Positions 7,899-38,480 of a DNA stretch of 64,000 nt are shown here, piece after piece. The notes beneath the pieces are model-generated. The model ran no database searches. It was not told where the DNA came from and saw only the letters and a program-made list of their open reading frames with translations. Source of the stretch: Anaeromicrobium sediminis. Its GTDB lineage: Bacteria; Bacillota; Clostridia; Peptostreptococcales; Thermotaleaceae. Both the position numbers and the translations under genes were made by a program. The DNA lies in the NCBI RefSeq assembly GCF_002270055.1, contig NZ_NIBG01000001.1:62001-126000 (forward strand), given 5' to 3'. Within the stretch, counting starts at the first letter, position 1. Every line of letters starts with the position of its first letter.

Positions 7899-8624
7899 AT
7901 GGAAGCTAGTTTTTCTAGTAACGGTAAAATATTAGAGGATAAAATAGTAGAGCCAAACCCATATACATCAAATAATAAGAAGAAAGAATATAATGTAGAA
8001 TCAATTGGAAATGTAAACTTCCTAGATGAAGTGGAATCTGTAGGTGTGCTATTGGATAAAGTTTATTCATTTTGTCAACTTAGGGATTGTTTTCCAAAAT
8101 TTAAAATAGATATACATGACTTTAGTAGAAAAACAGAATTTGAGAATATTATATTTCAAGAAGGATATATTGAAAGGGGAACTTTAGAGATAAGTTCTGT
8201 AGGAAAGAAAAGACCGAATTTTTCTAGGATAAAATTTACTCTAAAAATACCATTTACATTAAATCTAAGAAACCTGACAACTAAAGAATTAATAAGTATG
8301 AATGGGATTTTACCAGAATTAAAGAAGGATATTATAATGTACATACCAGAGGCAAGGAGTGAATTTGATTTTAGGGTGGTTGCAGAAACTAGAACAGAAA
8401 TATTATCTTTACCTGAGATCATAAATAATCAAATCGAAATTCCAATAGGTATATTTTCAATAATAAGGGTAGTAGGTAGAGTGCAATTACTTGTACCAGC
8501 ATACAAAACAACACCGGAACCTCCAGAGGCAGAAACATATGAGCATATGGAAGAATCCATATGTGAAGCCTTTGACACAAGAAACTTTCCACAAGATTTT
8601 TTTCCCATAAAAGATGATATATAA
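7899..8624 (+). CDS. Spore-coat-like protein (copy 2)
   Basis: A 241-residue protein without signal peptide, paralogous to 5332-6144. Shared features are the VGVLLDKVYSFCQLRDC segment (matching the VYDSCLLRLC region of copy 1), a beta-rich middle, the RVQLLVPAY strand, and an acidic, Pro/Phe-rich tail (NFPQDFFPIKDD). It has far fewer cysteines than copy 1 and no His run. The RBS GGGGGGAT precedes ATG 7899. A glycosyltransferase gene begins 27 bp downstream, so the two are probably co-transcribed, which suggests the surface protein is glycosylated or displayed with glycan. Function is inferred. Confidence 0.55.
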   Translation: MEASFSSNGKILEDKIVEPNPYTSNNKKKEYNVESIGNVNFLDEVESVGVLLDKVYSFCQLRDCFPKFKIDIHDFSRKTEFENIIFQEGYIERGTLEISSVGKKRPNFSRIKFTLKIPFTLNLRNLTTKELISMNGILPELKKDIIMYIPEARSEFDFRVVAETRTEILSLPEIINNQIEIPIGIFSIIRVVGRVQLLVPAYKTTPEPPEAETYEHMEESICEAFDTRNFPQDFFPIKDDI

Positions 8625-8651: not shown

Positions 8652-9644
8652 TTGCGAATATTATTTCAAATAAGAAAGGACTATGAGAAAAATTCAGCTG
8701 GTGATACAGTAATATTGAAAAATATGGTCGAAGGTCTGAGGAAATTAAATGTTTCTGTGGATGTATATAATGATCATAGGATTTCAGTGAAAAAATATGA
8801 TGTGGTCCATATTTTTAATACTATAAGGATTTATGAAAGTTACAAATTTTTTAAAAATGCTCAAAATGGTGGCAAAAGGATCGTTATAAGTCCCATATAT
8901 TGGAACTTAAAAGATTTTTATAAAAATAGTAATAATATGGAATTAGTTAAGATATGGGACAAAAATGAAAGTAAAAGAAAAGAAATGTTAGATGAATGTG
9001 ACGTCATACTAGCTCATGCTCAAGGTGAATTAGATGAAATAGAAAAATTTTATGGAAAAAAAACAAATTATAAAATACTTCCCTATGGGGTGGATAGGAA
9101 GTTTATAAATGGGAAAAAAAATTATTTGTTAAGTAAATACAATATAGATAATTATATATTGTGTGTTGGCAGAATTCATAGACAGAAAAATCAAATTTCT
9201 CTGTTAGAAGCCTTAAAAAAAGAAACAATTCCAATAGTTATAGCAGGGAATATTAATGATGAAGAATATTTAAAAACATGTCTTAAAATAAGAAAGAAAA
9301 ATGTATTTGTGCTCAATGGAAAAAATAAATACGATTTGCCTTCTTTATACAAGAGTGCTAAGGTTCATGCTCTTCCAAGCTTTTTTGAATATCCAGGATT
9401 AGCTAGCATGGAAGCAGGCCTAGGGGGCTGCAATGTGGTAACCACTCAAATAGGAACCACAAAAGAAATATTTAAGGATTATGCAAAATATTGTAATCCC
9501 AATGATGTAAATTCCATAAGAGAAAATATTATGGAAGCTTTTTGGGAAGAAAGAGATAGTAAATTAAGAGAATACATATATGAAAACAACAACTGGGAAA
9601 AAATTTGCCTGAAACTAAAAAACATATATGAATCTTTAATATAA
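8652..9644 (+). CDS. GT4-family glycosyltransferase
   Basis: A 330-residue GT-B fold glycosyltransferase. The C-terminal domain shows the group 1/GT4 features: YILCVGRIHRQKNQ at about 167-180, a donor-site motif FFEYPGLASMEAG (an E-x7-E variant) and a following GTTKEIF. The N-terminal domain starts MRILFQIRKD. The start is TTG 8652 with RBS AAGGAGGA. No membrane segment is visible, so it acts in the cytoplasm, most likely on a spore-surface or cell-surface glycan. It lies between coat-like gene 2 and the CDP-sugar genes. A terminator follows. Donor and acceptor are unknown. Confidence 0.85.
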   Translation: MRILFQIRKDYEKNSAGDTVILKNMVEGLRKLNVSVDVYNDHRISVKKYDVVHIFNTIRIYESYKFFKNAQNGGKRIVISPIYWNLKDFYKNSNNMELVKIWDKNESKRKEMLDECDVILAHAQGELDEIEKFYGKKTNYKILPYGVDRKFINGKKNYLLSKYNIDNYILCVGRIHRQKNQISLLEALKKETIPIVIAGNINDEEYLKTCLKIRKKNVFVLNGKNKYDLPSLYKSAKVHALPSFFEYPGLASMEAGLGGCNVVTTQIGTTKEIFKDYAKYCNPNDVNSIRENIMEAFWEERDSKLREYIYENNNWEKICLKLKNIYESLI

Positions 9645-30639: not shown

Positions 30640-30674
30640 TTAAAAGTGATGGGTTTTAGGAGGTGTGCAAAGGT

Positions 30675-31016
30675 ATGTTGAGTTTATTTACTACTTTATC
30701 TATTGTTATGATTAAACCACTATATATGCTTGTGTCATACGTATCAAGCAATAGTTCTTTTCCTACTCCGCTTACTCCGGAAGAAGAAAATAAATATTTG
30801 CAAAAGTATGAACAAGGAGACGAAGAGGCAAAAAATATTTTAGTGGAAAGGAACTTAAGATTGGTTGCACACATTGTGAAAAAATACCACAATACGGGAC
30901 GCGAAATGGATGACTTGATTTCTATTGGGACTATTGGTTTAATAAAAGCCATAACTTCCTTTGATAGGAATAAGGGTACTAGGTTGGCTACTTATGCTGC
31001 CAGATGTATAGAAAAT
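30675..31016 (+). CDS. sigK: sigK segment 1 of 3 (pro-sequence and sigma region 2)
   Basis: Encodes residues 1-114 of pro-sigma-K, the late mother-cell sigma factor of sporulation. Residues 1-21 are a hydrophobic pro-sequence. LVSYV at 19-23 matches the B. subtilis cleavage region, predicting a cut after S21. Region 2 follows: [11 protein letters not shown], the core-binding [13 protein letters not shown], and [13 protein letters not shown] in the -10 recognition helix. The frame then runs into element 1 and stops three codons later. ATG 30675 is chosen with AGGAGGTG at 30660-30667. Joined to 33676-33775 and 38197-38480 it gives 241 codons with no gap. Confidence 0.96.
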
Positions 31017-31017
31017 G
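31014..31017 (+). other. Left crossover repeat of element 1
   Basis: AATG within GAAAATGCTATA. Crossover anywhere in this repeat with the copy at 33673-33676 yields ATA GAA AAT GAA ATA TTA, reading I-E-N-E-I-L in frame, the conserved sigma-K sequence. Confidence 0.85.
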
Positions 31018-31061
31018 CTATATTTGTTTAATGGAAACATAAAAATTGTCTTATAGATTAT

Positions 31062-31098
31062 AAAAAGGATTGTTAATTTTATTAACAATCCTTTTTAT
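31062..31098. terminator. Bidirectional terminator at the left end of element 1
   Basis: AAAAAGGATTGTTAAT (31062-31077) and ATTAACAATCCTTTTT (31081-31096) form a perfect 16-bp stem with A and T tracts on both sides. It ends the recombinase mRNA (minus; its stop codon lies in the stem) and also the truncated sigK mRNA (plus) while the element is in place. Confidence 0.88.
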
Positions 31099-32728
31099 AT
31101 GAATTATTTTTTATATTAGATCCCATAAAAATCACTTCTACAATATTCCCATCCCAGATGATTTTTTCTATTAAACTATTAATTAAACTAATTTTTTCCA
31201 CATTACTTAATAAGTCTATTAATTTATGGAAATTACCTATTGTATCAGCTAAATCATCAAGATTAAATTTATCTGATTGGGCAGTGAATTTATCGTACAT
31301 AATTTTATATTTACCTTCTAATTTATTTAGATCTTCTTCTAAAGTTCTTATTTCTTTAAAAATGTATTTTCGAATAGATTCTTCTTCAGAGTAGGATATG
31401 GACTGGACTAATTGTTGTATTTGAAATTCCTTTTTTTTAATAATATTTTTAAGTAAAATTAAATCAGAATTTTTTTTTGTCCTAGTAAAAGTAAAATCAC
31501 TTTTACATAAGGCTTCAATAAAAATTGGATTTTTTTGAAAGGAGACTTTTAAATTTTCTAATAAAGTTTTATCAAGTTCATTACCTTGAATATTTTTTAT
31601 GGAACAATGGGATTTTTTACTTTTAATTTTATTTTCACATATATAATAAAAACTTTTTAATCCATTCTTGTTAGTTCTACCAATTTTGGGTCTCATACGG
31701 GCACCGCAATTTTTGCAATATAAGATTCCAGATAAAAGAGCTTGTGATGACTTTCTTCGTCTAAAGGATTTGAAGCTGTTTTGGGATAGTATATTTTGTA
31801 CAGTAATCCATTTTTCACTAGGAATAACTCCCTTGTGGGAGCCTATGGTTATTATCCATTCTGATGGAGTCCGCAGCTTATTGGAAATATTTTTCTTTTG
31901 AATAGTCTTATTATAGGCCATAATACCGTGTTTACCGTTAAATAGATTTTTATGTCCATAAATGGAATAATTATTTGTAATAAAATAATTATAAATATTT
32001 AAATCAGCCACGGCGTAAACTGGATTAGTTAATATATTACGTAAAGTGATGGGAGAAAAATTAATGTTATTTTTACTTTTTATATTTTTTTCCATACAAT
32101 AGTTTTCTAATTGAGTTAGAGATTTTAAGTCTAAAAATTTGTTGAAAATTAACCCTATAGTACGTATTTCATCTGGAATAGATTCTAGATTATAGATTTT
32201 CTTTATTTTTTTCTTTTCATCCTCTACTTTTATGCATGTAGATTTAAATCCAGTAGGACATATTCCACCTAACCAATGGCCATCTTTAGCCAATTGAAGC
32301 ATATTATCTCTTATACGTTCACCTATAGTTTCCCTTTCTAACTGAGCAAAAACACTAGCTATATACATCATTGCACGTCCCATAGGGGTGGATGTGTCAA
32401 AATGTTCTTTAATGGATATAAATGAAATATTATAATTGTTTAATTCTTCAATAAGAAATGAAAAGTCAGCTACATTCCTGCTAATCCGATCTAGCCTATA
32501 ACATATTAGCATATTGAATGATTTAAATTTGGCATCCAACAACATTTTTTTAAATTCAGGTCTATCCATAGAACCTCCTGAAAATCCTTCATCCTCATAT
32601 ACTATAAAATCCTCATTTGATAAATTGAAAGTTTTCATAGCATATTCTTTACAAAGCTGTATTTGATTTTCTATAGAATCACCTACACCTGTGAATTTAG
32701 ACTTCCTTGAATATATGGCACACTTCAT
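31082..32728 (-). CDS. Large serine recombinase of sigK element 1
   Basis: A 548-residue serine recombinase. The catalytic domain starts IYSRKS with nucleophile S10, then ICYRLDRISRN and MGRAMMYIASVFAQLERETIGERI. The 'recombinase' domain follows from about residue 150, with LLSGILYCKNCGARM and a second cysteine pair forming the zinc ribbon at about 340-385. A coiled coil lies at about 430-480. It is intact. It should join the AATG repeats and remove element 1 in the mother cell, as SpoIVCA does in Bacillus. Transcription is opposite to sigK. Its promoter region (32729-32858) is shared with a divergent small ORF. Confidence 0.95.
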   Translation of the reverse strand: MKCAIYSRKSKFTGVGDSIENQIQLCKEYAMKTFNLSNEDFIVYEDEGFSGGSMDRPEFKKMLLDAKFKSFNMLICYRLDRISRNVADFSFLIEELNNYNISFISIKEHFDTSTPMGRAMMYIASVFAQLERETIGERIRDNMLQLAKDGHWLGGICPTGFKSTCIKVEDEKKKIKKIYNLESIPDEIRTIGLIFNKFLDLKSLTQLENYCMEKNIKSKNNINFSPITLRNILTNPVYAVADLNIYNYFITNNYSIYGHKNLFNGKHGIMAYNKTIQKKNISNKLRTPSEWIITIGSHKGVIPSEKWITVQNILSQNSFKSFRRRKSSQALLSGILYCKNCGARMRPKIGRTNKNGLKSFYYICENKIKSKKSHCSIKNIQGNELDKTLLENLKVSFQKNPIFIEALCKSDFTFTRTKKNSDLILLKNIIKKKEFQIQQLVQSISYSEEESIRKYIFKEIRTLEEDLNKLEGKYKIMYDKFTAQSDKFNLDDLADTIGNFHKLIDLLSNVEKISLINSLIEKIIWDGNIVEVIFMGSNIKNNSYKKDC

Positions 32729-32858
32729 AACATCACCTTTAATATAAATATTAAGTAATATATAAAATTATTATGATTTTACATAATTATTACAAGCCAT
32801 ATTGAATAAATTTAATTAAAAGGGAAATATATCTTCGTAAGGAGGAGGAAGATTGATT

Positions 32859-33029
32859 GTGAAAATAAATATGCCAAAGGGGAAGGATGGAATAGATATA
32901 TTAGAAAGACATATAATTACTACTCATGGCAGGATAGTTAGAAATTATATAGATGAATTGGAAATTACTGAAGATAACAAGGAAATCCTATGTAAAAAAT
33001 TGAGAGATAATAAAAATACGGAAATGTAA
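32859..33029 (+). CDS. Small protein in element 1 (56 residues)
   Basis: GTG 32859 has a strong RBS (GGAGGAGGAA) nine bases upstream. It encodes a charged protein starting VKINMPKGKDGIDILERHI and ending in a basic helix, CKKLRDNKNTEM. It is divergent from the recombinase gene, a common place for a regulator or recombination directionality factor. I recognise no family. The good RBS and position support a real gene; TTG 32853 is a possible alternative start. Confidence 0.55.
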   Translation: MKINMPKGKDGIDILERHIITTHGRIVRNYIDELEITEDNKEILCKKLRDNKNTEM

Positions 33030-33139
33030 AACAAAATTACCTTATAAGAATATATTAAGATAAAACATGAGATTCCATTAATCCTTTTAAAAAGGGAACA
33101 AACATTATGAAAAAAAGTATTTTTATTATTATAAAAATT

Positions 33140-33169
33140 GGTATAAAAAATATAAGTCATGCATACAAT
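33140..33169 (+). promoter_or_regulatory. Strong sigma-E-like promoter inside element 1
   Basis: GGTATAA (33140-33146), 15 bp, then CATACAAT (33162-33169), a full match to the sigma-E -10 consensus with good spacing. It drives the 42-residue and perhaps the 70-residue gene downstream, implying mother-cell expression. Confidence 0.6.
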
Positions 33170-33207
33170 GGTACTAGCTATCTATTAATTAGGGAGGGAA
33201 AATTATT

Positions 33208-33336
33208 ATGGACAAGTACATTGTAGAAATTACTAATGGAGTAATAGAAATGAGTTTAAATACAGGTATGGCTGCTTCGGATTTAATAATGCAAGCAAAG
33301 GAGTTAGTTGAAGATAGGAAGAATGAAGAAAATTAA
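33208..33336 (+). CDS. Small protein in element 1 (42 residues), candidate excision factor
   Basis: ATG 33208 is preceded by AGGGAGGGAA and, about 40 bp upstream, by a sigma-E-like promoter. It encodes MDKYIVEITNGVIEMSLNT followed by an amphipathic helix (DLIMQAKELVEDRKNEEN). No family is recognised. Mother-cell-timed expression of a small element-encoded protein is what one expects of a recombination directionality factor; the C. difficile skin element encodes one. That role is inference only. Confidence 0.5.
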   Translation: MDKYIVEITNGVIEMSLNTGMAASDLIMQAKELVEDRKNEEN

Positions 33337-33426
33337 ATAAAAAAGTTTAGGGCATATTTTTCTTTACTTATTACTTTTTTAAAAGTAATATATTATATAT
33401 ATTATTTTTAAAAAAGGAGGAAAAAT

Positions 33427-33639
33427 ATGTTTTTTTATTTTAGAAATAAAAATAAAAAAATAAGTTATCTTAGAAAAAACATGTCATACACTGCAAAAGA
33501 ATTGGCATTAAAGTTAAAGGTTGATGATTCTATAATATTTAAAATAGATAACTTAAAGTTAAAGGAAGTTGATAAAGGATTGAGGGAAAAATTAATTCCT
33601 GTTTTTAGAGGTGATATGTACGATAACATCCCCTGGTAA
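33427..33639 (+). CDS. Small HTH-like protein in element 1 (70 residues)
   Basis: Starts at ATG 33427 with RBS AAAAGGAGG. A basic N-terminus (FRNKNKKISYLRKN) leads to MSYTAKELALKLKVDDSIIFKID, which reads as a helix-turn-helix of XRE-like type. The ending LREKLIPVFRGDMYDNIPW resembles small clostridial regulators with the same tail. It ends 33 bp before sigK segment 2. It could regulate the element or bind its ends. The HTH assignment is by eye. Confidence 0.6.
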   Translation: MFFYFRNKNKKISYLRKNMSYTAKELALKLKVDDSIIFKIDNLKLKEVDKGLREKLIPVFRGDMYDNIPW

Positions 33640-33672
33640 TCTTCATTAAGTAGCATTAAGTTTAGTATTCCT

Positions 33673-33676
33673 AATG
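33673..33676 (+). other. Right crossover repeat of element 1
   Basis: AATG within CCTAATGAAATATT, the partner of 31014-31017. Two CATTAAG copies lie at 33644-33660 on the element side. Confidence 0.85.
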
Positions 33677-33775
33677 AAATATTAATGACAATAAGATCTG
33701 GTAAAAAAACTAAGAGTGAAGTATCACTACAAGATCCTATAGGAATTGATAAAGAAGGCAACGAATTATCATTAA
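33676..33775 (+). CDS. sigK: sigK segment 2 of 3 (end of region 2 and region 3)
   Basis: One hundred bases between the two elements encode about 33 residues of sigma-[19 protein letters not shown] then [15 protein letters not shown]. These match the B. subtilis stretch EILMHLR...VSLHDPIGQDKEGNEISL. The segment has no start codon or RBS of its own and is useful only after rearrangement. If element 1 alone were removed, the frame would read six codons beyond segment 2 and stop at 33790-33792, giving a 152-residue protein without region 4. Confidence 0.95.
33767..33775 (+). other. Left crossover repeat of element 2
   Basis: TATCATTAA, identical to 38188-38196. The flanking bases GAATT versus GAAAT extend the similarity on the left side. 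Confidence 0.85.
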
Positions 33776-33806
33776 CTACTTATCAAAATTAAAGAGGTGA
33801 TTTTTT

Positions 33807-35156
33807 ATTAATAGAAGAACCATAAAAGATGTTCTCCACTTAGCTCTACCAGCTGTAGGAGAAATGATTTTATATATGTTAATATGGATATGTGATACTA
33901 TGATGGTAGGTAAATATGGTGGTAAACTTACTGTAACGGCAGTTGGACTCAGTGCACAAATAATATATACCGTTATAGGAATTTTTGTGGCAAATGGCAT
34001 AAGTGTTGGGGTAACATCTTTAGTAGCTAGAAGTGTAGGGGCTAAGAACTACAAAAAAGCTCAGGAATATGCATCTGTAAGTTTACATATAACTTTATTT
34101 TTAAGTATTATAATATCTACAGTATTTTTTACTTTTGCAAAAGAGATTCTATCAATAGCAGGAGCAGATAGGGAAGTTATAATTTTAGGGACAAGCTACA
34201 TTAAAATATGTTCTGTACAAATATTCTTCAATATGATGAGAAATAGTTTGAATGGAGCTTTAAGAGGACAAGGAGATACTAAAACACCTCTATATTCGTC
34301 TATTATATTAAATATTATAAATATTGGATTAGATTGGATTTTAATTTTTGGAAGATATGGATTCCCAGAAATGGGAGTAAATGGTGCAGCCATGGCCACT
34401 TCCATAGCTAGTGTAAGTGCATATATATATACTTTGATACATATTAGAAATAAAGAATGTATAAAGCCTAAAATCAATTCAATCTTTAAGATGAATTTAA
34501 AAAGAGCTAAAGAGTTGATGAAATTATCAATTCCTGCTAGTCTACAAGAGGCAAGTTTTAGCATTGCTAGATTAATAAATACTTTTATGATAATGATTTT
34601 AGGAAATGTGGCATTTTCAGCTAATGAAATTACAGTGAGCATAGAATCACTATCTTTCATGCCTGGCTGGGGTTTTGCAGTGGCATCTACTACTTTAGTA
34701 GGTCAAAAAATAGGTGAGAATAGATATGACAAAGCAAAGGAATATGCTCATACATCTATAATATTAAGTGCTGGTGTAATGGGAATATGTTCCTGCATAT
34801 TTATTCTATTTCCAAGCAATCTCATACAGATGTTTATTAAAAGTTCAGAAACGGAAGTTATAAGATTAGGAACCATATGTTTAATGATTGCTTCAATTGA
34901 ACAAATTCCAATGGCCATATCAATGACAACTGAAGGTGTTTTAAAGGGAATAGGAGATACTAAGAATCCTTTTATAGTGGCTTTAGCCACTAATTGGTTA
35001 ATAAGATTACCCTTAATGTATTATTTTATAGTCATAAAGAAGAGTTCAGTAACATATGTTTGGTGGATAACATCTATTCAGTGGATACTTCAGGGAAGTA
35101 TAATATATGTCATATATAGGTATAAATTTAAAAAGATGCTAGAAAAATCCCAATAG
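33807..35156 (+). CDS. MATE family multidrug/Na+ antiporter, cargo of element 2
   Basis: About 449 residues with twelve membrane segments. DTMMVGKYGG in the first helices, GRYGFPEMGVNGAAMAT in the middle and the PLMYYFIV end are typical of MATE exporters, which use Na+ or H+ to expel cationic drugs. The first canonical start is ATG 33864, but the frame is open back to 33801. The residues INRRTIKDVLHLALPAVGE look like the true MATE N-terminus, and AAGAGGTGA sits seven bases before ATT 33807, so an ATT start is proposed. It is the first gene after sigK segment 2 and would be lost from the mother cell on excision. Confidence 0.88.
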   Translation: MNRRTIKDVLHLALPAVGEMILYMLIWICDTMMVGKYGGKLTVTAVGLSAQIIYTVIGIFVANGISVGVTSLVARSVGAKNYKKAQEYASVSLHITLFLSIIISTVFFTFAKEILSIAGADREVIILGTSYIKICSVQIFFNMMRNSLNGALRGQGDTKTPLYSSIILNIINIGLDWILIFGRYGFPEMGVNGAAMATSIASVSAYIYTLIHIRNKECIKPKINSIFKMNLKRAKELMKLSIPASLQEASFSIARLINTFMIMILGNVAFSANEITVSIESLSFMPGWGFAVASTTLVGQKIGENRYDKAKEYAHTSIILSAGVMGICSCIFILFPSNLIQMFIKSSETEVIRLGTICLMIASIEQIPMAISMTTEGVLKGIGDTKNPFIVALATNWLIRLPLMYYFIVIKKSSVTYVWWITSIQWILQGSIIYVIYRYKFKKMLEKSQ

Positions 35157-35172
35157 ATATGTCTAGCATCTT
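35133..35172. terminator. Shared hairpin between convergent MATE and recombinase genes
   Basis: AAGATGCTAGA (35133-35143) pairs with TCTAGCATCTT (35162-35172). It spans both stop codons and the 6-bp gap. The T tracts are short, so its strength is uncertain. Confidence 0.5.
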
Positions 35173-36683
35173 AACTTAGGATATATTTTCAAAGTGAGAT
35201 TCTTCTTACTAGGTTTGTAGTAGGTGACTTTATACAAAAGACTCTTAATAAATCTATTTTGTTCTTCTATATTGTTGGATAGAAAATAATGGTCCATTAA
35301 GTCTCGATTAATGGACAAATTCCTTTTTAAATCCTCTTTTAATCCAAGAGACTCTTGCAGGTGTATTTTGTTTTTGTAAATCAGATTATTAATATGAAGT
35401 TCTTTATTTTTTAAGAAAGACACTCTTTCTTCATATAACTGTTTATCATATATTTTTCTTTCAAAATAATTGTAAACTTGAGTCTTTTGTAAATATAATT
35501 CCCTTAATTGACGTTCATTGTAATTGATTGAATTATTATAAAAGGAAATAGAAGAATTTAGGTCATCTAATAAATCCTTTTCCATATGAATGGTTATAGG
35601 GTAATTTGAAAAATATTTTCTCAAATTGCAAATTAAAGAGGTTTCTATTAGGGAAAATTTACTACTTTTATTGCCACATTTACTAGTACATATTAGTTGA
35701 GGTTCTCTGTTTTTATATGGCCTTAGAATCATTTTTTTATTACATATTTCACAAAATATTACCCCTGCTAGGGGGTTTTTTAATTGTCTTTTTCCTGGAA
35801 CTGGAGAATTTCTTCTGCTACTTAGTATGGACTGAGCCTTTTCATATGTTTCTTTTGTGATTAAGGCCTCATGTTTTCCATCAACAACCATCCAATTACT
35901 TTTATTCTGAGAAACAATATGTTTATTTCCAAGGGAGTCTTTGTAAGTTCGTGTTTTTTTCCAAGTTATTTTCCCTGTATATATGGGATTTTTCAATATA
36001 TTTAATATGGAATAGTTATTCCAAGGTTTATTAGTATGAGTTGTGTAACCTGAATCATTTAATCGGTGAGCTATTTTACTAGAACCTATAGACTCTGTAG
36101 TATACCAGTGAAATATTTTTTTTACAATTAAGGATTCACTATCTTTAGGTATTAAAAATCTTTCATTATGCTCTTCTTTTATTAAATATCCAAAGGGTGG
36201 ATTTGGAGAAATATAATTCCCCTCTTCAATAGATCGAATTCGACCTCGTTGTAATCGCCTAGTGATTATTTTTAACTCTTTTCTTGCCATAAAGGCTTCA
36301 AATTCACTATATTCTTCATCAAATTCATTATTTAGATCATAAATTTTTCTTGGTGTTATTATCTTAGTATGGGATTTTTTAAATGTATCTAGTATTAGAC
36401 CTTGTTCCCTCATATTGCCTCTTCCTAAGCGATCAATGTCCATACATAGTACTCCATAATAATTTTTGTTGTCCACTTCTTTTAGGAGAGATAACATTTC
36501 AGGTCTACTTATCAAACTATCTCCAGACACAATTTCCCTTTTTATGGATGTTACTATGTAATTCCTTTTATCAGCTAGATCTAGTAAGGTATCTTCGTGT
36601 TTTCTTAAGGCTTCAGTTGAAAGATCTTGTTCTAAATTTTCATCTCCTCTTGATTTTCTTAAATAGATACATACTTTTTTCAA
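35163..36683 (-). CDS. Large serine recombinase of sigK element 2
   Basis: About 506 residues. The catalytic start is KKVCIYLRKSRGDE with the nucleophile serine in RKS, then MDIDRLGRGNMREQG and EFEAFMARKELKIITRRLQRGR. The recombinase domain is followed by a zinc ribbon (GVIFCEICNKKM and LICTSKCG) and a long coiled coil. It belongs to a different subgroup from the element 1 enzyme (YLRKSR type with SGDSLISRPEM), so each probably recognises only its own sites. I chose TTG 36683, since AGGTGATT lies just ahead; GTG 36692 overlaps it. It runs opposite to sigK and convergent with the MATE gene. Confidence 0.94.
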   Translation of the reverse strand: MKKVCIYLRKSRGDENLEQDLSTEALRKHEDTLLDLADKRNYIVTSIKREIVSGDSLISRPEMLSLLKEVDNKNYYGVLCMDIDRLGRGNMREQGLILDTFKKSHTKIITPRKIYDLNNEFDEEYSEFEAFMARKELKIITRRLQRGRIRSIEEGNYISPNPPFGYLIKEEHNERFLIPKDSESLIVKKIFHWYTTESIGSSKIAHRLNDSGYTTHTNKPWNNYSILNILKNPIYTGKITWKKTRTYKDSLGNKHIVSQNKSNWMVVDGKHEALITKETYEKAQSILSSRRNSPVPGKRQLKNPLAGVIFCEICNKKMILRPYKNREPQLICTSKCGNKSSKFSLIETSLICNLRKYFSNYPITIHMEKDLLDDLNSSISFYNNSINYNERQLRELYLQKTQVYNYFERKIYDKQLYEERVSFLKNKELHINNLIYKNKIHLQESLGLKEDLKRNLSINRDLMDHYFLSNNIEEQNRFIKSLLYKVTYYKPSKKNLTLKIYPKLRC

Positions 36684-36812
36684 TATAATCACCTATGAAA
36701 GTTTAGTTATTAGAGTATATTTACTAGACAATGAATTTATTATTAACTATTAAAAATTTTATTATTAAAATGAGTGTCCACGCATATTAAGTATTAAGGG
36801 GATGATAAGAAG

Positions 36813-36944
36813 ATGGGAGAAGAGATAAATATAATAATAGTAAAGCCCACATTAAATAGTGATTATATGGAAGAAAAAATTGAAGAAGAAATTAAAAAAA
36901 GTATTATATCAATTTTAAAAAAAGAAATCATTAGTAAAAAATAA
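36813..36944 (+). CDS. Small protein in element 2 (43 residues)
   Basis: Divergent from recombinase 2. ATG 36813 has AAGGGG about ten bases upstream. It encodes MGEEINIIIVKPTLNSDYME then a long charged amphipathic helix rich in Glu, Lys and Ile. There is no named family. Position and size mirror the 56-residue ORF beside recombinase 1, so it is a candidate excision or regulatory factor for element 2. Confidence 0.5.
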   Translation: MGEEINIIIVKPTLNSDYMEEKIEEEIKKSIISILKKEIISKK

Positions 36945-37004
36945 ATGATAAAATTTGTTAGCACATAGACAGGCTAAGTAATATTATATAGCAGGGGTGG
37001 GAAA

Positions 37005-37910
37005 ATGCTAGAGAAAATAAATAAAAAGTTTGTCTATGGACTAATAGTTATATTGGCTGCTGTAACTGCATTTGGTACAAGCTTTTTTTATAAAAGTATT
37101 AGTGAAGAACAAATATTAGACACTACTACTAAAACTTTATATACAATTGGCAAAGATCAAGAAAATAGGATTTTAGAATTTTATGATAATGTTCTTTATA
37201 ATTTAAATTTAATTGCACAAGGCTATTCCATATCAGGGATGAAATGTGACAATGTGAATAGAATTATAGAATATATTAATTTTAAAAATAGAGACATTTT
37301 TATTGATATATACGTTATAGATAACGATTTAAATTTAATATATGGTAACAATTATGCACAAGAAAACTTTGAGGATAACGAGTGTATAAAACGTGCTTTA
37401 GATGGAGAATTGACCTTTGGACAAATATTAAAAATAAAGAATACCATATATACGGATGTGGCAATTCCAGTATATAGGGACAAGAAAGCCATTGGTGCCA
37501 TATATGCTAAGGTGGATTTAACATATTTGAATGATATAATGGCAAATTCTAAATTAATAGGAGAAGATGCAGAGAGTTTTATGTTGGATAATGAAGGCAT
37601 ATTTGTTACTGAGTCAAGATTTATTCCTAATGCTGTAGGAAAGCAGAGTGCAAATATTGGAAAAATAAAATCCTCAATAGATTATTCTAATAAGATACCT
37701 TATAAAAATTATAGGGATGAAGAAGTATATGGTATATATTTTACTATTCCTTATAATGAATTAACTTTAGTATTAGAGCATAGTAATTTAAACATGAATG
37801 AGAAACACAAGGAACAAATAGAAAAAATAGGTCAATTGGCAGCCTTAATAGAAGTGTTGGTTTTAGCAATTAGTAAGGTTGTTTATGAAAAACTATACAA
37901 AAATGAATGA
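37005..37910 (+). CDS. Membrane sensor with dCache-like extracellular domain and no output domain
   Basis: 301 residues. One membrane segment is at about 11-30. An extracytoplasmic region of about 240 residues has the double-Cache pattern (FIDIYVIDNDLNLIYGN, IYTDVAIPVYRDKKAIGAIY, FMLDNEGIFVTESR). A second hydrophobic segment lies at about 275-293. It ends ten residues later, so no histidine kinase, GGDEF or methyl-accepting domain is present. It may be a truncated receptor, or may work through a partner. RBS AGGGGTGGG precedes ATG 37005. It is cargo of element 2, closed by a strong terminator. Confidence 0.75.
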   Translation: MLEKINKKFVYGLIVILAAVTAFGTSFFYKSISEEQILDTTTKTLYTIGKDQENRILEFYDNVLYNLNLIAQGYSISGMKCDNVNRIIEYINFKNRDIFIDIYVIDNDLNLIYGNNYAQENFEDNECIKRALDGELTFGQILKIKNTIYTDVAIPVYRDKKAIGAIYAKVDLTYLNDIMANSKLIGEDAESFMLDNEGIFVTESRFIPNAVGKQSANIGKIKSSIDYSNKIPYKNYRDEEVYGIYFTIPYNELTLVLEHSNLNMNEKHKEQIEKIGQLAALIEVLVLAISKVVYEKLYKNE

Positions 37911-37935
37911 AAATATAAGAAGTAGCTTTTAGACT

Positions 37936-37964
37936 AAAAGGGTTCTCAAAAAGAGAACCCTTTT
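37936..37964. terminator. Bidirectional terminator near the right end of element 2
   Basis: AAAAGGGTTCTC and GAGAACCCTTTT form a perfect 12-bp stem with an AAAAA loop. It ends the dCache gene (+) and the tiny peptide gene (-). Confidence 0.88.
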
Positions 37965-37981
37965 AATTTAGTTCTTTTGAT

Positions 37982-38059
37982 TTATAAGTACATTATCTTT
38001 AAAAGTAATGCTAAGAATACAAAAGAAAACATGGAAAGTTTGAAATTTTTATGTTTCAT
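37982..38059 (-). CDS. Tiny hydrophobic peptide (25 residues) at the right end of element 2
   Basis: On the minus strand AGGAGG lies seven bases before ATG 38059. The peptide begins MKHKNFKLSMFSF and continues with VFLALLLKIMYL, one short membrane helix after a basic start. It ends shortly before a bidirectional terminator. The layout resembles type I toxin peptides or small membrane regulators. No antisense RNA is evident by eye. Its place between cargo and attachment site is suggestive, but function is unknown. Confidence 0.45.
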   Translation of the reverse strand: MKHKNFKLSMFSFVFLALLLKIMYL

Positions 38060-38187
38060 TTTTTTCCTCCTAAAAAATAATAGTTTAAATCTATTAATAT
38101 GTAAATATTAACAATATTATTCTTGAAATTTAAATAAAAATTTCACAATGTATTATAATTTTTTATAACTTGTTAATGATTATGAAA

Positions 38188-38196
38188 TATCATTAA
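38188..38196 (+). other. Right crossover repeat of element 2
   Basis: TATCATTAA. Just upstream, TTAATGAT (38173-38180) is the exact inverse of ATCATTAA (38189-38196), an 8-bp inverted repeat with an 8-bp spacer that may help the recombinase bind. Confidence 0.85.
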
Positions 38197-38480
38197 TAGA
38201 TATTCTTGGCACAGAGACAGATGAAGTTTTAGACGAGGTGGAATTAAAGATACAAGTGAAAAAATTATATGAAAAAATGAAATGTGTTTTAAAGGCAAGA
38301 GAAAGGACTGTAATACAATTGAGGTATGGATTAGCTAATGGAGGTAGCAAAACTCAGAGGGAAATTGCAAAACTATTAGGAATTTCTAGATCATATGTGT
38401 CAAGAATCGAGAAAAGAGCCATAAAAAAGTTAGGGAAGGCCTTTAATAGCAGTTGTAAAAAACAAAGTAAAGAGAAATAA
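38197..38480 (+). CDS. sigK: sigK segment 3 of 3 (sigma region 4)
   Basis: Encodes the C-terminal 94 residues of sigma-K: IDILGTETDEVLDEVELK, then region 4 with RERTVIQLRYGL and the -35-binding helix-turn-helix TQREIAKLLGISRSYVSRIE, ending in a lysine-rich tail. The frame continues upstream of any start codon to the TATCATTAA repeat. There is no RBS, so it is not an independent gene. A terminator follows at 38491. Total length of the joined gene is 726 nt including the stop, and the protein length of 241 equals that of B. subtilis pro-sigma-K. Confidence 0.96.

Follow-up and report, generated by a model that had tools for sequence, protein, structure and literature searches.

In the window, the 64-kb stretch of DNA analysed here (positions 62001-126000 of contig 1 of genome G000, 4.71 Mb), the late sporulation gene sigK of a spore former is broken into three pieces, with two DNA elements between them that, judging by the sequence, are removable. 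Piece 1 (N-terminal part, GTG start; 30663-31013, plus strand), recognised by tblastn against the sigK of relatives and by the open joined frame, ends at the core of site 1, whose left copy (attL side) is the AATG at 31014-31017 on the plus strand; AATG is repeated at both ends of element 1. The right copy (33673-33676) opens piece 2 (middle part; 33673 to about 33762, plus strand), and the left copy of the site-2 junction, GAATTATCATTAA, follows at 33763-33775 (plus strand). Twelve of these 13 bases recur in the right junction copy (38184-38196), which opens piece 3 (C-terminal part; 38184-38480, plus strand). Joining the pieces at AATG (31014/33673) and within GAANTATCATTAA (33763-33775/38184-38196) yields a single open frame; the site-1 core is well placed, and at site 2 either choice of crossover keeps sigK open. 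Element 1 occupies 31014-33672 (2659 bp, 2.66 kb) inside sigK, and element 2, the second split, measures 4421 bp (4.42 kb). In relatives, site 1 is flanked on the left by AATGCTAT and in most cases on the right by AATGAAAT, and site 2 has AATGAA on both arms.

Element 1 encodes recombinase 1 (31082-32728, minus strand), a large serine recombinase of 548 aa with the Pfam domains Resolvase, Recombinase and Zn_ribbon_recom. A long hairpin or terminator-like palindrome (31059-31099, plus strand; 19 pairs in a terminator scan) lies in the passage from sigK piece 1 to the end of recombinase 1. Divergent from the recombinase is a 56-codon ORF (32859-33029, plus strand; GTG start, or 58 codons from an upstream TTG), which has AAGGAGGAGG as its ribosome binding site (RBS) and is followed by a 42-aa ORF (33208-33336, plus strand; ATG start) and by a basic ORF of 70 aa (33427-33639, plus strand) with weak matches only, some of them to HTH-type regulators. 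Prophage structural genes are absent among the ORFs of element 1, and a scan of viral contigs gave 19 pattern matches, not one of which codes for a relative of recombinase 1. Element 1 splits a sporulation gene that is made whole by core joining, and it encodes a large serine recombinase. It is, by these features, a skin-type large-serine-recombinase element in sigK, as the preliminary description had implied, and the recombinase domains and the open joined frame bear this out; its excision would take place in the mother cell.

Element 2 carries recombinase 2 (35163-36692, minus strand), a 509-aa large serine recombinase by Pfam, together with two cargo genes, for a MATE-type transporter (33864-35156, plus strand; Pfam MatE) and a dCache sensor-like protein (37005-37910, plus strand; Pfam dCache_1). 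Position alone makes a 43-aa ORF divergent from recombinase 2 (36813-36944, plus strand) a candidate for the directionality factor of this element; it has no significant profile match to the ORFs of relatives, which hold a different, promoter-marked ORF at that position. For one such site-2 ORF (G009), AlphaFold2 predicts strands plus a helix (pLDDT 76), and none of 68 Foldseek matches of this model in the PDB has E <= 0.001. From 31014 to 38196, the window thus holds a sigK split twice by recombinases of different lineages. We found no report of a twice-split sigK in the literature searched, which included few subscription journals and is weak evidence of absence.

We compared sigK across 16 genomes of the family, 14 of which yielded its C-terminal piece. 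Three of these have splits at both sites: the window genome, G006 (locus L045), in which the joined frame is open, and G003, probably, where the double split is pieced together from two contigs. Site 1 alone is split in six (G001, G002, G005, G008, G010 and G011) and site 2 alone in two (G004 and G009). Neither site is split in G015, which serves as an intact counterpart, or in G012, where sigK is cut farther downstream; G014 shows an intact site 2 and no visible site 1. Homologues of recombinase 1 with 52-55% identity occupy the same sigK site in five relatives (G005, G008, G006, G001 and G002), and homologues of recombinase 2 occupy site 2 in four relatives (47-50% identity) and a locus of genus g44 that resembles the C. 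difficile skin (about 42%).

Programmed DNA rearrangement has a standard example in skin excision. Presumably the B. subtilis skin is inserted at the same sigK codon as site 1. The literature describes skin-type elements as carrying int and rdf, with CD1234 conferring mother-cell specificity on skin excision in C. difficile (PMC5025042, PMC6957869), and assigns the attB sites of the two skins to separate parts of sigK (PMC6957869); in the window sigK, both kinds of skin site appear to be filled. Like the B. subtilis skin (SpoIVCA, Skr), which has the repeat AATGA and whose recombinase gene runs opposite to the 5' part of sigK (PMC10745906), element 1 has the core AATG(A) and an opposed recombinase beside that part. 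It differs from this 48-kb, prophage-like element (PMC6957869, PMC10745906) in its 2.66 kb and in the divergent position of its candidate factor, whereas skr is described as overlapping the start of spoIVCA (PMC6957869). The C. difficile element skinCd (recombinase CD1231, factor CD1234) likewise combines a large serine recombinase element in sigK with a small sigma-E-controlled gene, and CD1234 is described as a small, acidic factor of 72 aa under sigma-E and SpoIIID control (PMC5025042).

Four genomes of the genus g44 have a 72-aa ORF in the corresponding part of their sigK element, with the promoter geometry found in our relatives' candidate factor genes; its -10 element fits the start site published for CD1234, 14 bp before the codon (PMC5025042). 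We liken the g44 element to skinCd by layout, the computed pI of the ORF being 4.95 and the value given for CD1234 in the same source 5.5. The g44 split is at site 2, and its recombinase is related to recombinase 2, not to recombinase 1. Element 1 differs from g44 and skinCd in its position in sigK, its 2.66 kb and its recombinase lineage (about 22% identity to the g44 recombinase). Element 1, and above all its counterpart in G005, comes close to a recombination unit of attL, int, rdf and attR. Interrupted sporulation genes with a recombinase are also described for yin in yabG, vfbin and the gerE element, yin with a putative small factor; in the cases described there, these have one insertion per gene, whereas the window sigK has two (PMC10747680).

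In these five relatives (G005, G008, G006, G001 and G002), an ORF of 57-68 aa lies divergent from the recombinase, at the same position as the 56-aa ORF. A profile built from these five ORFs, with the 56-aa ORF excluded, matched the latter at E 8.4e-7 (best of 500 shuffles, 0.026), and the 12 top-ranking matches of that profile included none of the 42-, 70- and 43-aa ORFs. Comparison by hhalign of the 56-aa ORF with the relatives' family gave 82-90%, the 90% coming from a wider set, some members of which were first gathered with a profile containing the window sequence. The columns P, YI, L and K are invariant. With the relatives' candidate factors the 56-aa ORF shares no more than 16-21% identity (52-54% for the recombinases); among the relatives themselves, candidate factors are 57-68% identical where the recombinases share 70-75%, and 40-50% identical where these share 59-60%. 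Since the relatives' recombinases have 52-54% identity to recombinase 1, element 1 should encode a cognate factor of their family. In the 2.25-kb element of G005, the gene of the 56-aa family is the sole RBS-bearing ORF of at least 25 aa between the recombinase and sigK. The 56-aa ORF has an excellent RBS and a codon score above random, and AlphaFold2 predicts two helices for it (pLDDT 86); none of 149 Foldseek matches of the model in the PDB has E <= 0.001, and its family has no significant match among PDB chains, the SPbeta integrase-YotN fusion among them. The profile matches and the shared divergent position indicate that the 56-aa ORF is a remote homologue of the relatives' candidate factor. 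Despite similar layouts, we did not accept that the candidate factors of site 1 and site 2 are homologous to each other or to the CD1234-like 72-aa ORF (hhalign 0.3-3.8%); against that ORF, the site-2 family reached 3.8% (E 0.011), the 56-aa family 0.9% and the 42-aa ORF 0.3%.

The candidate factor genes of relatives also share a promoter signature, ATA[A/G][G/T]ACAA-N11-CATA (ATA and CATA spaced by 20 nt), which combines a sigma-E-type promoter with a SpoIIID-like box. We take the ACAA box to be a SpoIIID site from the B. subtilis consensus. The C. difficile SpoIIID consensus given in PMC5025042 was also used for this reading. The signature precedes 20 of the 30 candidate factor ORFs of relatives, within 130 nt upstream for 28 of them and 90 nt for those of G010 and G011. 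It is found before all five site-1 ORFs (G005, G008, G006, G001, G002), all five site-2 ORFs, all four CD1234-like ORFs, four of five ORFs of a third family (L050, L055, L056 and L058, not L054) and both members of a fourth, the 77-aa ORFs of G010 and G011, but before none of seven ORFs that immediately precede the recombinase gene in the same orientation and neither of two others (L070, L077). Position or similarity guided the choice of most of these small ORFs; the promoter was in view when the site-2 family was recognised, which is thus not a blind sample. A looser sigma-E pattern occurs before none of nine recombinase genes tested, the two of the window included. At the four other large serine recombinase loci of the window genome, a still looser pattern has a site before two of the four recombinase genes (L225, L226), and no small ORF there is preceded by a sigma-E-like site. 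In relatives, then, a small gene with a mother-cell-type promoter lies in the recombinase's element, usually beside the recombinase, and the 77-aa ORFs of G010 and G011 suggest that the promoter persists while the directionality proteins differ strongly between elements.

Across the 16 genomes the signature has 57 matches (32 for a reversed control), of which 13 are candidate factor genes described above, so that it is not exclusive to such genes. In the window genome it has three matches (eight for the control), none beside any of the six recombinase genes, and it is absent upstream of the window's four small ORFs. The 56-aa ORF, unlike all five of its site-1 relatives, therefore has no such signature upstream; it is preceded, 33 nt away, only by a degenerate GAATA-N17-AATATATC, with a chance probability of 0.175. 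The preliminary description had proposed a small excision protein timed to the mother cell, and the relatives' promoters speak for this arrangement in general, while the window's own 56-aa gene departs from it. However, no clean ATA-spacer-CATACANT site was found in the 200 nt upstream of either spoIVA or spoIIID in the window genome. The host sigma-E consensus is thus not sharp, and the missing site before the 56-aa ORF is weak evidence. Nor is a mother-cell promoter a defining trait of every directionality factor of large serine recombinases.

The best sigma-E-like site in element 1 belongs to the 42-aa ORF. As the preliminary description had it, this ORF has a good RBS (AGGGAGGG, 9 nt upstream of the start), and a sequence GGTATAA-N15-CATACAAT lies upstream at exactly 33140-33169 on the plus strand (in full, GGTATAAAAAATATAAGTCATGCATACAAT), with an 8/8 match to the -10 element, which begins 46 nt upstream of the ATG. 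Calling it a close sigma-E match is accurate for the letters, but the match has modest statistical weight. CATACAAT occurs twice in the 64 kb where 3.98 occurrences are expected, and the 4.7-Mb genome contains ATA-N16-CATACAAT 10 times and its reversed control 12 times, so that the pattern is not over-represented. Nevertheless, this is the sole case on either strand of the window in which [G/T]NATA stands 18-21 nt before an 8/8 -10 element, and a post hoc probability for such a site within the 178-nt gap is 0.001 under a Markov-1 model; with a looser, position-limited pattern (NATA for CATA), the chance of a match before the 42-aa ORF is 0.12. With a 1-nt gap, the site reaches a score of 7.2, where the 12 training sites have 21.9-34.7; ATA and CATA are 19 nt apart instead of the relatives' 20, and the SpoIIID-like box is missing. 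By sequence the ORF may nonetheless be transcribed by sigma-E RNA polymerase.

The 42-aa ORF also looks coding: its codon score of 0.57 log2 odds per codon, which is partly driven by amino-acid composition, exceeds that of all 3000 random ORFs of non-coding composition (maximum 0.25). The predicted product has a pI of 4.25. In the 16 family genomes it matched only itself, and among 393 genomes sampled from the order there was no convincing homologue, only the self-match and two weak matches of a strength attainable by chance (G009, E 0.016; G362, E 0.042). Searches of plasmids gave no matches and searches of phages three records, all with E of 2 or worse. Membership in a known family was rejected, with nothing significant in Pfam, PHROGs, NCBIfam or the PDB. 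We conclude that the ORF is probably a real, lineage-specific gene, whose role may be an accessory one.

Homology and position thus point to the 56-aa ORF and the promoter to the 42-aa ORF, so that the criteria disagree. In our judgement the recombination directionality factor of element 1 is probably the 56-aa ORF rather than the 42-aa ORF. Element 1 would then be a small skin-type unit (attL, int, rdf, attR) inside sigK, in which the 56-residue protein (32859-33029), made divergently from recombinase 1, would make this enzyme act on attL x attR; recombinase 1 would excise the element in the mother cell and join sigK piece 1 to piece 2, and element 2, unrelated to element 1, would do likewise for pieces 2 and 3. 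What the sequences show is that sigK has two insertions and an open frame once joined, that the 56-aa ORF is remotely homologous to the relatives' candidate factors and placed like them, and that the relatives follow a promoter rule; that the elements are excised, when this happens and what each small protein does, we infer. The preliminary description had selected the 42-aa ORF as the excision factor by its promoter. The presence of a homologue of the relatives' factor at the same position, together with the lack of a convincing homologue of the 42-aa ORF, speaks against that selection, which keeps some weight, as the 56-aa ORF has no good sigma-E promoter. The 42-aa protein would on that account be a directionality factor made only in the mother cell through its sigma-E promoter, having replaced the ancestral factor. 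It combines the best sigma-E-like site of the element with a good RBS, coding-like codons and an acidic pI, CD1234 being likewise small and acidic (PMC5025042). Moreover, a mother-cell-type promoter marks the candidate factor gene in relatives despite differing proteins, and a takeover of the role by a new protein is conceivable, given how strongly directionality proteins differ beneath a persistent promoter. We nevertheless consider such a replacement unlikely: neither the loci nor the genomes of relatives contain a convincing homologue of the 42-aa ORF, its hhalign values against the three candidate factor families are 0.1-0.4% (0.1% for the 56-aa family), its promoter scores 7.2 against 21.9-34.7 and has no SpoIIID-like box, and a homologue of the relatives' candidate factor is already present in element 1.

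The 42-aa ORF may instead be cargo or a chance ORF with a chance promoter match, excision being timed from elsewhere. This is doubtful but deserves some weight: the promoter pattern is no more frequent than expected (10 against 12 in the control, and 2 against 3.98 for the -10 element), the ORF has no convincing homologue, and relatives hold other ORFs in that interval. Its codon score, above all 3000 random ORFs, argues otherwise, as do the proper order of promoter and RBS and the fact that the site is the only 8/8 one of its kind in 64 kb. This account is compatible with the 56-aa ORF as the factor, and the probabilities we give the various readings do not sum to one. A division of labour between the two proteins also overlaps with that explanation. 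The 56-aa protein would be a loosely timed directionality factor, and the sigma-E-controlled 42-aa protein a second, lineage-specific factor for licensing or timing. Both ORFs look coding, the sigma-E-like promoter fits the strand and place of the 42-aa ORF only, and the 56-aa ORF has no promoter of the relatives' kind; however, a requirement for two proteins is not seen in what we consulted on the C. difficile and B. subtilis skin (PMC5025042, PMC6957869), and the 42-aa ORF offers no conservation to draw on. We regard it as quite improbable. Also rather unlikely, though a little less so, is a broader scheme in which two unrelated recombinases would be two locks at separate sigK positions, both to be opened before sigma-K is made, the promoter would be a common timing code that outlives the proteins it serves, and the timing of element 1 would, in this lineage, have moved away from the directionality factor to the 42-aa product, as a separate, new mother-cell peptide that gates it.

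The double, single and intact states of sigK within one family offer a test of what each lock adds. Large serine recombinases are tools for genome engineering, and their directionality factors are hard to find by homology. The promoter signature marks candidate directionality genes that share little protein sequence, and may aid in finding such factors.

The relatives' loci hold several other features. An Asn-Glu-Ile codon triplet is present at both sigK insertion sites (L045, L172), and the word AATGAAAT is common to both sites in G006 and G012 and occurs at site 1 only in G015; two recombinase lineages may have found one core word twice in sigK. In G012 (L230, from about 3219), sigK stops after GISRSY and is followed by ORFs that include, by eye, a ParA-like one; the 9.6 kb read did not contain the rest of the gene, and the break is possibly a third insertion point in sigK. 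In Candidatus Petromonas (L081 2238-7992), the N and C pieces of sigK are in opposite orientations, both recombinase types are present, and the middle piece was not found within the locus. A second C-terminal piece of sigK lies about 22 kb from the first in G010 (L176 2684-7639), with a site-2-type small ORF and its signature promoter upstream; no relative of recombinase 2 was detected in L175 or L176.

Site 1 of G001 and G002 (L048 5740-9337, L049 5798-9432) contains two tandem recombinase-1-type genes and a 325-aa ORF, which may reflect the integration of one element next to another. A minus-strand ORF of 58-65 aa, FPLW[IV]AQNKHKI[LI]IYD..., is found in the site-1 elements of G008 (L046 7595-7771) and G006 (L045, about 8207-8404) as well as in the site-2 element of G009 (L053, about 9267-9452), which suggests cargo exchange between site-1 and site-2 elements. 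Finally, between recombinase 1 and sigK in L045, L046 and L047, repeated TTCCGAG stretches lie on both sides of the small factor gene.
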